Source of the DNA: Sphingomonas profundi
GTDB taxonomy: Bacteria > Pseudomonadota > Alphaproteobacteria > Sphingomonadales > Sphingomonadaceae
Direction of reading: 5' to 3'
Length of the DNA stretch: 64,000 nucleotides
Assembly: GCF_009739515.1 (NCBI RefSeq)
Contig: NZ_CP046535.1
Span: forward strand, 1,674,001 to 1,738,000
Shown here: piece after piece, positions 1-4,718 of the stretch
Numbering within the stretch: position 1 is the first letter of the stretch
Layout: each line of letters opens with the position of its first letter
Position numbers and translations under genes: made by a program
The notes under the pieces: model-generated
The model's database searches: none
What the model saw: the letters and a program-made list of their open reading frames with translations, nothing else
Told to the model about the DNA's origin: nothing

Positions 1-146
1 TCGCGCGGTGATAGCGCCAAATCGCCGCGGCTGGAACCGGCATGGTCCAATGCCTCGATTGCCAACCCGTCGCGTGCGGCGCATGATGCTGGTGCCCGAC
101 GAGGCGGCACGCGTCCCTGCCCCGCCGGCATCCTGTGGGGGGATCC

Positions 147-2855
147 ATGCCGAGCGAGCCGCCGCGCCAGCCGTCGGAAACCGACCCCGCCATCCGCGCC
201 GCCGACGACCTCGATCGCGACGCGCTGGCCAGCCGCCGCGCCGCGCTTGAGGCGGCTCGTGCCGGTGTGTCGGGGTGGAGCGGCACCGGCATCGCCGGCC
301 TCGCTCTGTCGGGCGGCGGCATCCGCAGCGCCACGCTCTCGCTCGGCATGCTGCAGGCGATCGCCGGCCGGCGGCTGATCGGCCATTTCGACTATGTATC
401 GGCGGTGTCGGGCGGCGGCTATATCGCCGGCTTCTTCCGCAGCCTGTTCCTGCCCGGCAGCATGCGCGGCGCCGGCTGGCAGGAGGCGGTGGGCACCGCC
501 CCAGGCGTCAGCGAGCAGCACCGTTTCGCCGAGGCGGTGCTGGCCAGCGAGCCGGCCGACCGCACGCTGGCCGGGCCGGACGGCGCGGCGGTGCGCAACC
601 CGATCTGGTGGCTGCGCCAGCACAGCCGCTATCTCGCGCCCAACGGGCCGAGCGACTATGCCTCCGCCGCATCCTATCTGACGCGCAACTGGATCGCGAT
701 GCTCTACGTGTTCGTGATCGCCGTCGCGAGCATCTTCGCCGGCGTTACCCTGCTGCTGCGCGCGCTGTTCCACCTCGCCGGCGCCGATCCGCTGGTGGCG
801 CGGCTGACGGCGATCCGCCTGCCGGCCGCCGCCGCGCCGCCGCTCTGCCCCGGCCGCTGCCCGCCGGCCGCGCCGCCGGTCGAAACGGTTCTGCACCTGA
901 GCCCGTGGCTGCCGCTGGCCGCCCTGGCCGTCGTCGCCGCCTTCTGCTGCGGCGTGGCCTACTGGATGACGGAGAACATGCAGGCGACGCCCCAGCCGCT
1001 CGGCCGCCCGCGCCGGCTGGACGACCGCACCGATTCCCGCCGCCGCTTCCTGCGCGTGACCGTGCCGACGATGCTGCTGGCCGCCGCCGCCGGAACGCTG
1101 GTGATCCTCTACGACGTCTCGGCCATTCCGCCGCTGCGCCGCACGGCCGGATCTCCGGCGATCTGGGTGATCGGCCTCGGCGCGGCCTATGTGCTCGCCA
1201 CCGGCCTGGTCGCCATCGCCGCCTATCTGAAGGCGCGCGGCCGCTTCGCCAATCCCACGGCGGAGATGCGCCGCCTGCTCACCGCATGGCTCACCGCCGC
1301 CAACCTCGCCGCGCTGGTGCTCGTCACCGCCGGCATCTGCGACAGCCTCGCGCTCGCGCTGCGCACCCGGGTGCCGGCGGTGATGGGCGGCGGCGTCGGC
1401 CCGCTCGTCTCGACGGTCCTGATCCCCGCCGCCGCCTTCGCGATCAACCGCCTGTCCGGCCTGCTCGGCGGCAAGGCGAAGGGCGGCGGCATCGCCGGCT
1501 TCCTCGCCCGGCACATGAGCGTGGCGCTGCTGATCGCCGGCACCCTGCTCTACGGCATCGTCGCGATCCTGGTGGACGCGGCCGTGCAGGCGGTGCTCTG
1601 GTCCGGCACCGCCTGGGGGCCGCCGGGGCTGGACGGACGGCCGACCGCCACGCTGCTGCTGATCCTCGTCGTGCTGGTCGGGATGACGGGGCGCGCCCAT
1701 GGCTTCATCAACCTCTCGTCGCTCCACCAGCTTTACGCGGCGCGGCTGACGCGGGCCTATCTGGGCGCCTCCAACCTTGCCCGGCTGCGGCTCGACGATG
1801 GCGCGCGCACGATCAAGGAGGGCGATCCGTGCGATCATGTGGAGCCGCGCGCCTTCTTCGCCGGCGCCGTCACCGCGCCCATCCCGCTGCTGCTGACGAC
1901 CCTGAACGAGACGATCTCGCCGCAGTCGCAGCTGACGGAGCGGGATCGCAAGGGCGTGCCGCTGCTGCTCGGCCCGCAGGGGATCAGCGTGGATCGCGGC
2001 GCGCCGATCCGGTGGAGCGATCTTGCCGCCAGCGACGCGGAGGCGCTGTCGATGGGGCAGTGGTGCGCCATCTCCGGCGCGGCGGCGTCGGCCGGCATGG
2101 GCCGGCTCACCACCCTGGGCGGCGCGCTCACCTGCACCTTCGCCAACGTCCGTCTCGGCTACTGGTGGAGGCACGGCGGCACGATCGCCCCCTGCGTGGC
2201 GCGGCCGCTGACCGATCGGCTGGGCAGCCGGTTCGATACCTTCCTGTTCCTGTTCGCCGAGATGACGGCGCGCTACTCGCGCAACTGGCGCCGGGTGTAT
2301 CTTTCGGACGGCGGCCATTTCGAGAACAGCGCCGCCTATGCCCTGCTCCACCGCCGCGTCGGCGTGGTCCTGCTGTGCGACGGTGGCGAGGATCCGCTGT
2401 ACCGCTTCGACGATCTCGAACAGCTCGTCCGCAAGGTGCGGCTCGATCTGCGCGGCGAGGTGGAACCGGTGGAGTGGGCCACGGTGGAGCAGGTCGCCGG
2501 CGGCGCCGCCCCCTTCTTCCTCAACGCGCAAGGGGCCGGCGGCTGGCACGAGCGGATCGACGATCCCGCCTCGGCCGGCGCCTTCGCGCTGATGCTGCGC
2601 GCCCGCTTCGCCGGCGAGACGCAATCGAGCATCATCGTCTGGCTGAAGCCCCGCCGGCTGCCGACGATGGCGGCGGACGTGGCTGCCTACGCCCGCTTCA
2701 ACCCCGCCTTCCCGCACCAGTCGACCGGCGACCAGTTCTTCGACGAGGCGCAGTGGGAGAGCTATCGCAAGCTCGGCTTCCAGATGGCGGACGCGCTGCT
2801 GGAGGCCGCCGGCCCCGCCTTTCTCGATCGCCTGCGCGCGGCCAGCGGCCGATAA
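147..2855 (+). CDS. Membrane-embedded patatin-like phospholipase
   Basis: Predicted lipid acyl hydrolase of the patatin family, 902 residues. The oxyanion motif SGGGIRSA is at residues 55-62, the nucleophile is Ser88 in SAVSGGGY, and the catalytic Asp is Asp721 in the motif SDGGHFEN. Patatin Ser and Asp are normally far closer; here about 630 residues separate them, and this stretch holds about seven hydrophobic segments (near residues 180-520). The enzyme is therefore probably an integral inner-membrane protein with a split catalytic domain. The ATG at 147 was chosen because a GGGGGA ribosome site precedes it; a GTG at 135 is also in frame. The substrate is unknown. It stands alone upstream of a tRNA gene. 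Confidence 0.85.
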   Translation: MPSEPPRQPSETDPAIRAADDLDRDALASRRAALEAARAGVSGWSGTGIAGLALSGGGIRSATLSLGMLQAIAGRRLIGHFDYVSAVSGGGYIAGFFRSLFLPGSMRGAGWQEAVGTAPGVSEQHRFAEAVLASEPADRTLAGPDGAAVRNPIWWLRQHSRYLAPNGPSDYASAASYLTRNWIAMLYVFVIAVASIFAGVTLLLRALFHLAGADPLVARLTAIRLPAAAAPPLCPGRCPPAAPPVETVLHLSPWLPLAALAVVAAFCCGVAYWMTENMQATPQPLGRPRRLDDRTDSRRRFLRVTVPTMLLAAAAGTLVILYDVSAIPPLRRTAGSPAIWVIGLGAAYVLATGLVAIAAYLKARGRFANPTAEMRRLLTAWLTAANLAALVLVTAGICDSLALALRTRVPAVMGGGVGPLVSTVLIPAAAFAINRLSGLLGGKAKGGGIAGFLARHMSVALLIAGTLLYGIVAILVDAAVQAVLWSGTAWGPPGLDGRPTATLLLILVVLVGMTGRAHGFINLSSLHQLYAARLTRAYLGASNLARLRLDDGARTIKEGDPCDHVEPRAFFAGAVTAPIPLLLTTLNETISPQSQLTERDRKGVPLLLGPQGISVDRGAPIRWSDLAASDAEALSMGQWCAISGAAASAGMGRLTTLGGALTCTFANVRLGYWWRHGGTIAPCVARPLTDRLGSRFDTFLFLFAEMTARYSRNWRRVYLSDGGHFENSAAYALLHRRVGVVLLCDGGEDPLYRFDDLEQLVRKVRLDLRGEVEPVEWATVEQVAGGAAPFFLNAQGAGGWHERIDDPASAGAFALMLRARFAGETQSSIIVWLKPRRLPTMAADVAAYARFNPAFPHQSTGDQFFDEAQWESYRKLGFQMADALLEAAGPAFLDRLRAASGR

Positions 2856-2979: not shown

Positions 2980-3016
2980 AAAAGCCCGCCAACTCGCTGA
3001 GCTGGCGGGCTTTTAT
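2980..3016 (+). terminator. Intrinsic terminator of tRNA-Val
   Basis: A 16-bp stem (AAAAGCCCGCCAACTC against GAGCTGGCGGGCTTTT, one A-C mismatch) with a tiny loop, ending in TTTTAT. The flanking A and T runs make it usable from both strands. Confidence 0.9.
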
Positions 3017-3239
3017 GTTTTCGGCGCGATCACTGCGCCGATCAGACGCTGTGCAGCGCCAGCTTCCGCCGGCGCATCGTGCGGTGGCCGATGCCGGGCG
3101 CGGTGACGTCGCCGCATGTCTCCGTGTTTGCCGTTCCGCCGAGAGACTCCGTTCGGCCCGGTCGGCGATTGCGCGCGACGACGAGGCGGCCGGCCGATCG
3201 CATGTTGCAATGCGGCCGCTCTCTCCTCTTATAGCGCGC

Positions 3240-4718
3240 ATGGCCGATATCGATCGACGTTCCGCCCTCCTGCTCCTCGCCGCGTCCACGGCGCTGCCGG
3301 GCGCCGCGCACGCCGCCGGCCGCGCCGTGCCTTTCTCGTGGGAGGGCCTGCAGCGGCTGGCGGCGGCGCGCGCCGCCGCGCCGTTCCGGCCGGTGCCGCC
3401 GGTGGCCGGCGCCGGCGCGATCGATTTCGATGCGGCGGGCACGCTGCGCTACCGGGCGGATCGCACTCTGCTTGGCGGCATCCGCCTGTTTCCGCTTACC
3501 GCCACCGCGCCCCATCCGGTGCGGATCAATCTGGTGGAAGGCGGCCGCGCCCGCCCGGTGGCGTTCGCGCCCGACCTGTTCGAGGCGAGCGCCGGCCACC
3601 CGGCGCTGGGCCTCGCCGGCTTCCGCGCGATCACGCCGGGACGCGACAGCGACTGGATCGCCTTTCTCGGCGCCTCCTACTTCCGCGCCGCCGGGTCGCA
3701 GGACCAATATGGCCTCTCAGCCCGCGGCATCGCCATCGACACCGGCATCGACGGGCGGGAGGAGTTCCCCGCGTTCACCGATTTCTGGATCGAGCGGCGC
3801 GGGGCGCAGCAGTTCGTCGTTCACGCGCTGCTCGACGGGCCGAGCGTGGCCGGCGCCTTCCGCTTCGATTGCCGCCACGGCGCGGACGGGGTGGTGCAGG
3901 ATGCGTCATGCGTGCTGTTCTTCCGCAAGGATGTCGCCCGGCTCGGCATCGCGCCCTGCACCAGCATGTTCTGGTATGGCGAGGGCGACCGCGTCGCCGC
4001 GACCGACTGGCGGCCGGAAATCCACGATTCGGACGGCCTGGCCATCGCCACCGGCAGCGGCGAGCGGATCTGGCGCCCGCTGGTCAACCCGCCGCGCGCC
4101 ACCCTGGACAGCTTCGCCGATCGCGCGCCGCGCGGCTTTGGCCTGATCCAGCGCGATCGCGATTTCGCGAACTATCAGGACGACGGCGCCTTCTACGATC
4201 GCCGGCCGAACCTGTGGATCGAGCCGAAGGGCGATTGGGGCGCGGGCGCCGTCTCCCTGTTCGCCTTTCCCACCCGCGGCGAGACGGACGACAATGTCGT
4301 CGCCTTCTGGACGCCGGCGGCGCGCGCGCGGCGCGGTGCGCGCATGGCCTTCGACTACCGCATGACGTGGAACGGGCGCGATCCCGCCGCCGATGCGCCC
4401 TCCCGCGCCATCGCCTGCCGTGCCGGCACCGCCGGGCGGCCGGGGCAGAAGGCGGTGGCCGGCGCGCGCAAGATCGTCGTCGATCTGTCGGGCGAGGCGC
4501 TCGGCGGGCTGGGCCGCGATGCCGGGGTGACGGTGCAGGCCGATGTCGCGCGCGGCCGCGTGCTGGACAAGGCGGCCTATCCGATCGTCGGGCGGCCCGG
4601 CCAGTGGCGCGCGATGATCGACGTCGCGGTCGAGGGCGCCGGCCCTGCCGACCTGCGCCTCTATCTGCGGCAGGGCGATCGGGCGCTGAGCGAGACGATC
4701 CTGCTGCCGGTCTACTAG
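3240..4718 (+). CDS. opgG: Periplasmic glucan biosynthesis protein OpgG/OpgD
   Basis: Glucan biosynthesis protein of the MdoG family, 492 residues, acting in the periplasm on the linear beta-glucan backbone made by OpgH to build osmoregulated periplasmic glucans. The N-terminus DRRSALLLLAAS, followed by an AHA cleavage site near residue 25, looks like a Tat signal, as in OpgD. The family core (LEASAGHPALGLAGFR, GASYFRAAG, YGLSARGIAIDTG, TSMFWYGE, DWRPEIHDSDGL) is easily recognised. The start at 3240 gives a clean signal peptide; an in-frame ATG at 3210 would add ten residues. It lies 4 bases upstream of opgH and is surely co-transcribed with it. OpgG and OpgD paralogues are hard to separate by eye. 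Confidence 0.9.
   Translation: MADIDRRSALLLLAASTALPGAAHAAGRAVPFSWEGLQRLAAARAAAPFRPVPPVAGAGAIDFDAAGTLRYRADRTLLGGIRLFPLTATAPHPVRINLVEGGRARPVAFAPDLFEASAGHPALGLAGFRAITPGRDSDWIAFLGASYFRAAGSQDQYGLSARGIAIDTGIDGREEFPAFTDFWIERRGAQQFVVHALLDGPSVAGAFRFDCRHGADGVVQDASCVLFFRKDVARLGIAPCTSMFWYGEGDRVAATDWRPEIHDSDGLAIATGSGERIWRPLVNPPRATLDSFADRAPRGFGLIQRDRDFANYQDDGAFYDRRPNLWIEPKGDWGAGAVSLFAFPTRGETDDNVVAFWTPAARARRGARMAFDYRMTWNGRDPAADAPSRAIACRAGTAGRPGQKAVAGARKIVVDLSGEALGGLGRDAGVTVQADVARGRVLDKAAYPIVGRPGQWRAMIDVAVEGAGPADLRLYLRQGDRALSETILLPVY

Follow-up and report, generated by a model that had tools for sequence, protein, structure and literature searches.

A putative inner-membrane acyl hydrolase of cPLA2 type in Sphingomonas profundi, with eight predicted membrane helices inserted into its catalytic core

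The window analysed here is a stretch of 64,000 nucleotides from Sphingomonas profundi (contig NZ_CP046535.1, positions 1,674,001 to 1,738,000), and the gene under study occupies its positions 147..2855 on the forward strand. The 902-residue product is probably a serine acyl hydrolase of the cytosolic phospholipase A2 (cPLA2) type, seated in the inner membrane and acting on the cytoplasmic leaflet. Its putative catalytic dyad, Ser88 and Asp721, is separated by 633 residues, and in the AlphaFold2 model residues 45-167 and 517-902 pack as one patatin/cPLA2 core that is interrupted by eight membrane helices. The protein belongs to a widespread and apparently uncharacterised family of unusual domain layout, whose fold is known and whose chemistry is probably known as well.

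The open frame has no internal stops and constitutes a genuine gene, and many bacterial phyla contain relatives of it. Its start, ATG147, has the G-rich GTGGGGGGATCC immediately upstream, and an alternative in-frame GTG start is possible at 135. Comparison with the nearest full-length relative (locus L022) gave a nonsynonymous divergence (dN) of 0.33 and a synonymous divergence (dS) of 0.79; the protein is therefore under constraint. The host genome is a single contig of 4.54 Mb. Opposite the gene runs an antisense open frame of 905 residues (3-2717, reverse strand), which reaches 1090 residues in the longer locus, where it enters the reading frame of the upstream peroxiredoxin, and which high G+C content almost certainly explains.

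Ser88 (codon 408..410, in YVSAVSGGGY) and Asp721 (codon 2307..2309, in YLSDGGHFEN) are the residues that the first-pass annotation of this DNA had proposed as a patatin-like dyad split by about 630 residues, and they stand where it had put them. Both are invariant in the 49 rows of the alignment used for modelling and in all 115 rows of a full-length alignment, from which incomplete members had been removed; the latter holds 113 distinct sequences once contained copies are collapsed, and counts the window sequence twice. An earlier quick alignment of 79 rows had Ser88 at only 94%, a shortfall taken to reflect rows trimmed to a late start codon. The nucleophile motif is mostly T-V-S-G-G in the family and A-V-S-G-G in the window protein; the residue two positions before Ser88 is Thr in 109 rows, Ala in 3, Ser in 2, Pro in 1 and Gly in none, and the strict GxSxG by which patatins are usually defined was not found in the 115 rows. 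The second patatin motif, D-G-[G/A], is present as D721-G-G723 (2307..2315) in every row. The putative oxyanion motif G56-G-G-I-R60 (312..326) matches Gly196-Arg200 of cPLA2 by motif, and its G56, G57, G58 and R60 are likewise found in 115/115 rows. Conserved S643-G-A645 (2073..2081; S643 and A645 in all rows, G644 in 112) presumably sits where a patatin motif precedes the catalytic Asp. A family signature, FPxxxTxDQFFDEAQWESYxxLG, covers residues 855-877 (2709..2777) and is almost invariant; parts of it served as scan patterns.

A closer Asp-Gly-Gly that might complete the dyad, which had been named as a result that would overturn the assignment, did not appear: among the 115 rows no Asp-Gly-Gly/Ala nearer to Ser88 than D721 is conserved, D145 and D551 included. 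D745 is invariant, yet it lies beyond D721 and carries DGG in just 9 of the 115 rows. The 57 invariant columns fall into the two halves of the core, 17 in the N-terminal and 39 in the C-terminal half, with a single one in residues 186-515; mean identity to relatives is 39-44% in the core and 21% in the insert.

Profile searches recognise only the beginning of this arrangement. The Pfam Patatin family (PF01734) matches residues 52-96 with 28.7 bits against a cut-off of 27.7 (E 1.8e-6), spanning model positions 1-43 of 191, and it matches 42 of the 49 members of the modelling alignment at E<=0.01. No other part of the window protein gave a Pfam match above cut-off. Because the Patatin match lies above its cut-off and both residues are invariant in 49/49 and 115/115 rows, the Ser88 and Asp721 motifs are not chance occurrences. 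The earlier remark that no common named family has this layout is borne out by NCBIfam, which returned zero matches at E up to 1, by the confinement of the Pfam match to residues 52-96, and by the annotations of plasmid relatives; among the matches listed in the open-licence PMC literature no description of a patatin/cPLA2 domain interrupted by membrane helices was found, and a report elsewhere is possible.

The structural model, built from the 49-row alignment, has a predicted local distance difference test score (pLDDT) of 84.4 and a predicted template modelling score (pTM) of 0.85. Its best match in VIA-align is human cPLA2 (1cjy_B; Z 23.3 over 405 residues, 4.0 Å, 11% identity), followed by 5iz5_B (23.0), CapE (18.7), PlpD (18.1), CapV (16.0), patatin (15.6), VipD (15.1) and ExoU (12.9), with rows outside the patatin/cPLA2 fold at Z 7.3 or less. 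The alignment range of every protein of this fold extends from the first core half into the second, as expected if residues 50-100 and 650-800 pack as one patatin core, which had been suggested as a check; the packing of both halves in the model thus supports the proposal of an integral-membrane patatin-type enzyme. Foldseek also places four cPLA2 chains first (E 1.2e-3 to 6.8e-3). A second model, of a Variovorax relative, was made from its own alignment of 34 Variovorax-type sequences, most of them 64-96% identical to the modelled protein and some shared with the first alignment; there the cPLA2 chains reach Z 24.4-26.2, with the next fold at 15.6. Since cPLA2 leads by 23.3 to 18.7 in the first model and by 26.2 to 15.6 in the second, the family would therefore be closer in its predicted fold to cPLA2 than to ordinary patatins.

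Several observations weigh against this assignment. The best Foldseek E value, 1.2e-3, narrowly misses the 0.001 line of that search, and whole-model template modelling (TM) scores are low (0.22). The second model is poor (pLDDT 65, pTM 0.49). No cPLA2 chain was recovered by sequence among solved structures at E up to 10, whether the single protein or the 49-row profile was used, and Pfam at E up to 1 gives only Patatin and SUR7. In relatives, crude counts of the helices shift with the threshold: eight were found in 45 of 99 measured members (range 5-12; 47 further relatives not measurable), and a looser threshold gave nine in 32, eight in 28, seven in 8 and six in 2 of 70 measured (44 further not measurable). 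A solved relative was also sought by sequence; only VipD appeared, at E 0.21 to 1.3, beside chance matches, and matches to cytochrome b-245 (NOX2) and PNS1 (E 0.11 to 0.14) were set aside because they are confined to the hydrophobic insert.

The N-terminal half of the core comprises residues 45-185 (279..701), helix 1 beginning at residue 168, and the C-terminal half comprises residues 516-902 (1692..2852). Between them the model places eight membrane helices (insert 648..1694), at residues 168-211 (648-779), 254-277 (906-977), 298-324 (1038-1118), 337-364 (1155-1238), 370-413 (1254-1385), 418-441 (1398-1469), 457-484 (1515-1598) and 497-516 (1635-1694). Hydropathy agrees, with eight peaks in the insert and one marginal peak at 577. 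The hydrophobic segments noticed at first reading are therefore present, and their number is eight in model and hydropathy rather than the seven or so then estimated. The number matters because the halves would lie across the membrane from each other if it were odd, for instance seven, and on one side if it were even; as the counts in relatives vary with the threshold, evenness is taken from the window protein, on its model and its hydropathy. Loops 2, 4 and 6, putatively cytoplasmic, contain 16 Lys/Arg among 79 residues, the loops of the opposite side 8 among 99, and the family means are 11.1 on putative inner and 5.2 on outer loops. No signal sequence was seen by eye at the N-terminus of the window protein. 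Eight helices, this N-terminus and the charge bias together put both core halves, by prediction, in the cytoplasm; the motifs, which might have come out far apart or across the membrane from each other, are joined in the model in one fold with an even number of helices between them. The poor conservation of the insert (21% identity, one of 57 invariant columns) argues for a membrane anchor or a lateral gate for lipids rather than a transporter with active residues of its own.

Potato patatin, CapV, CapE, VipD and ExoU have a catalytic domain that is not known to be split by a membrane domain. These PF01734 patatins share the fold of the window protein (Z 10 to 19) and the DGG motif; the window protein differs from them in that an eight-helix insert of about 350 residues splits the domain, Pfam detecting its first quarter only, and the continuous catalytic domain of about 190 residues typical of patatins is replaced by a dyad 633 residues apart with eight helices between. 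Patatins of the PNPLA6/NTE type are membrane-anchored, with the anchor outside the catalytic domain, and possess cyclic-nucleotide-binding domains; no Pfam match to such a domain was obtained for the window protein. PlpD of Pseudomonas aeruginosa is likewise a membrane-tied bacterial patatin (Z 18.1), described as an outer-membrane protein of Omp85 type with a 16-stranded beta-barrel. The window protein differs in having alpha-helices, a predicted inner-membrane location and an insertion within the catalytic domain; it gave no Pfam match to an Omp85 beta-barrel, and its insert is helical in the model.

Human cPLA2 (group IVA and IVD; 1cjy and 5iz5) is the top structural match of both models and has the GGGxR loop and the Ser/Asp dyad in common with the window protein, which differs from it in the A-V-S-G-G nucleophile motif and in membrane helices that cPLA2 is not known to have within its catalytic domain; the similarity is undetected at the sequence level. 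In cPLA2 the interval between the dyad residues carries the cap/lid. According to PMC3521694, cPLA2 has the dyad Ser228/Asp549 and the oxyanion loop Gly196-Arg200, and VipD the dyad Ser73/Asp288 and the loop Gly42-Lys46. The spacing from Arg/Lys to Ser is thus 28 in cPLA2, 27 in VipD and 28 in the window protein (Arg60-Ser88), and the interval from Ser to Asp is 321, 215 and 633, respectively; across the family it ranges from 472 to 854, with a median of 615 (99 members measured; 47 others without a motif required by the interval pattern were excluded). A long interval is thus a trait of cPLA2, and a split dyad is already known from that enzyme; the novelty is a long dyad interval that carries a multi-helix membrane domain. 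Group IVA cPLA2 docks to the membrane by a C2 domain, according to PMC6550875, and no Pfam match to a C2 domain was obtained for the window protein at E up to 1.

A mechanism may be proposed from the predicted fold and the invariant residues. Residues 45-167 and 517-902 would form a single cytosolic cPLA2-like core, and the eight membrane helices would occupy the sequence interval that holds the cap/lid in cPLA2. Ser88, activated by Asp721 and aided by the oxyanion loop G56-R60, would attack an ester bond of a lipid in the cytoplasmic leaflet, releasing a free fatty acid and leaving a lysolipid. Through the membrane domain the active site would stay at the bilayer permanently, where cPLA2-alpha relies on calcium-driven docking by its C2 domain. 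Substrate and leaflet are what we infer from this arrangement, and the cellular role of the stand-alone chromosomal copy in the window would most likely be membrane-lipid turnover. If correct, enzymes of the cPLA2 type are not solely peripheral, and a large bacterial family exists whose active site is built permanently into the membrane by inserted helices. Such a family would provide a model for interfacial lipid hydrolysis that needs no membrane docking, as well as a function for proteins that in many soil bacteria now bear the label hypothetical or patatin-like.

The family is broad in range and patchy in occurrence. In GTDB contigs 187 stretches related to the window gene were confirmed and 80 kept, which by their record titles come from Alpha-, Beta-, Gamma- and Deltaproteobacteria, Acidobacteria, Verrucomicrobia, Planctomycetes and Gemmatimonadota; a further member lies on a Bacteroidota plasmid. 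Relatives occur in 38 plasmid records; there some carry the name patatin-like phospholipase family protein or a similar one, others are labelled hypothetical protein, one is labelled GMC oxidoreductase, and others have no annotation. Among 59 genomes of relatives of the host, 14 match at E<=0.001, three of them (G004, G016 and G040) over 60 residues or fewer, and a convincing member is present in 11, the host included. The host genome has three more Pfam Patatin matches, none at the window locus.

This uneven occurrence (matches at E<=1e-20 in 26 of 299 genomes sampled from the phylum, the host included) would suit an effector that damages the membrane when triggered by stress or phage and is inactive until the signal arrives, as CapV and CapE are in the cyclic-oligonucleotide-based antiphage signalling system (CBASS). 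CapV and CapE are indeed among the fold neighbours, and some plasmid relatives lie beside TIR genes (L154), have a short patatin and a Mov34/MPN gene in the vicinity (L152), or adjoin lysozyme or muramidase genes (L146, L148 and L153); these are, however, few loci among many. PADLOC gave no match for the four proteins scanned (P0001 and three relatives), no cyclase or other defence gene was noticed beside the window gene when the flanks were read by eye without a dedicated cyclase scan, and there was no match in 50,697 phage records and one relative, L155, in viral contigs under a pattern-limited scan. An effector role is accordingly unlikely, though it fares best among the alternatives. The PADLOC result also led to rejection of a known defence system, and the viral scans to rejection of a phage or prophage gene; among viral structures no convincing match was obtained (best E 1.8).

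The same Ser-Asp dyad might instead shift an acyl chain between membrane lipids, with no release of fatty acid. Acyl transfer is within the reach of enzymes of the patatin/cPLA2 superfamily, and the conserved residues of the family do not separate it from hydrolysis. Neither Pfam nor NCBIfam gave a match to an acyltransferase family at E up to 1, which argues weakly against a transacylase; this possibility is also judged unlikely and ranks next.

Two more speculative proposals concern oxidation of the released lipid and draw on gene neighbourhoods. In a survey of 88 loci, left once near-duplicate loci and most Variovorax-type loci had been removed, a GMC oxidoreductase of one type is near or fused to the family gene in seven: fused in L063, L064 and L102, next to it in L029 and L094, divergent at about 2.5 kb in L141, and tail to tail in L035. 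Among a chosen set of 59 whole genomes, a GMC domain is fused to the family gene or lies within 6 kb of it in six, where 222 GMC matches would lead one to expect 0.64 (a count made among the matches listed, with G375 added from a separate scan); since all six were known before the 59 were chosen, this excess is descriptive and not an independent test. A large c-type cytochrome, also of one type, stands beside the family gene in L029, L063, L094, L102 and L141. Di-haem CytoC_perox proteins, which have a strong RoxA-like motif and differ from the large cytochrome, occur in 17 of the 59 genomes, within 6 kb in three, and beside the plasmid relatives L105, L146, L147 and L150 (Methylobacterium, Rhizobium and Ensifer). 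A fusion of catalase-like and animal haem peroxidase parts lies about 2 kb downstream of the relative on a Phyllobacterium plasmid (L145).

These associations suggest a link to lipid oxidation for the GMC/haem-enzyme branch, and for that branch only. On the more novel of the two proposals, the family would be a bacterial cPLA2 whose cap is replaced by the eight-helix domain, lipids entering sideways from the inner leaflet, and in one branch GMC oxidoreductase and haem enzymes (relatives of RoxA or of animal haem peroxidases) would be coupled or fused to it, as a counterpart of the eicosanoid route from cPLA2 to an oxygenase; this is improbable. Ranked after it, and likewise improbable, is a general role in which GMC oxidoreductases and haem peroxidases or dioxygenases oxidise the fatty acid that the enzyme frees at the membrane, much as cPLA2 feeds cyclooxygenase. 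The linkage to GMC and haem enzymes is a minority pattern; the large cytochrome is RoxA-like in Pfam only below cut-off (L063, L102 and L141) and gave no RoxA match in L029, and the L029 cytochrome, by eye a periplasmic lipoprotein, would lie on the opposite side of the membrane from the patatin core. Animal haem peroxidases are present in 10 of the 59 genomes and never within 6 kb of the family gene, and the peroxidase genes of the host genome are about 148 kb away. Should the reading of the family as membrane-built enzymes of the cPLA2 type hold, the haem-enzyme-linked branch could be tested as a lipid-oxidation route.

Lipoprotein acyl chains, offered at first reading as a second possible substrate, would fit the membrane location, but these chains sit on the periplasmic leaflet whereas the core, judged by charge bias, faces the cytoplasm, which makes their hydrolysis or remodelling very improbable.

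Nothing around the putative acyl hydrolase gene itself points to a shared operon. On its upstream side, in divergent orientation, a peroxiredoxin and a short-chain dehydrogenase were recognised by eye; both also stand upstream in the close relative L022 and represent shared gene order. Downstream follow tRNA-Val at 2902-2976 and what reads by eye as a periplasmic glucan gene (3015-4718), in keeping with one MdoG match in the neighbour tally, in which the member is unnamed. No neighbour common to the whole family was seen: with crude gene calls based on codon scoring, and after removal of near-duplicate and most Variovorax-type loci, Pfam searches of 83 and 62 chosen neighbour genes out of 293 listed revealed no family in more than three members. 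Tryptophan dioxygenase accounts for three of the 83, probably through shared gene order in related species. The GMC, haem-enzyme, TIR, lysozyme and Mov34 neighbours described for other members do not apply to the window gene.

Some relatives have arrangements of their own. Variovorax relatives (e.g. L037 5965-9474) have about 390 extra C-terminal residues ending in a small alpha-beta domain, for which Pfam gave nothing firm and the poor second model gave one weak match, to the C-terminal domain of Rv0431 (Z 6.3). Two loci, L118 (8327-10869; model positions 29-361 and 393-832) and L148 (4476-8191), carry the family gene as two overlapping open frames, which reflect either a frameshift or a genuine two-part form. 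An 1839-residue frame in L125 (Sphingomonas solaris) was considered as a new fusion and rejected, its extra N-terminal part being mostly antisense to a di-haem cytochrome peroxidase gene.

The set of cytochrome, GMC oxidoreductase and membrane cPLA2-like protein recurs in Proteobacteria, Verrucomicrobia and Planctomycetes (L029, L063, L064, L094, L102 and L141); the L064 contig starts within the GMC portion, and no cytochrome is seen on it. The distant peroxidase genes of the host genome (locus L156, C1:1815001-1835000) comprise an animal haem peroxidase gene at C1:1828018-1829610 and, about 4 kb from it, di-haem cytochrome peroxidase matches at C1:1821977-1824175, both on the reverse strand. 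On the Mesorhizobium plasmid of L154 (2694-8596) three TIR-domain genes flank the relative, two upstream and one downstream. On the Rhizobium plasmids of L146 and L153 a lysozyme, the membrane phospholipase, a 1200-residue protein and an alpha/beta hydrolase stand in a row, which is possibly a lysis or competition cassette.

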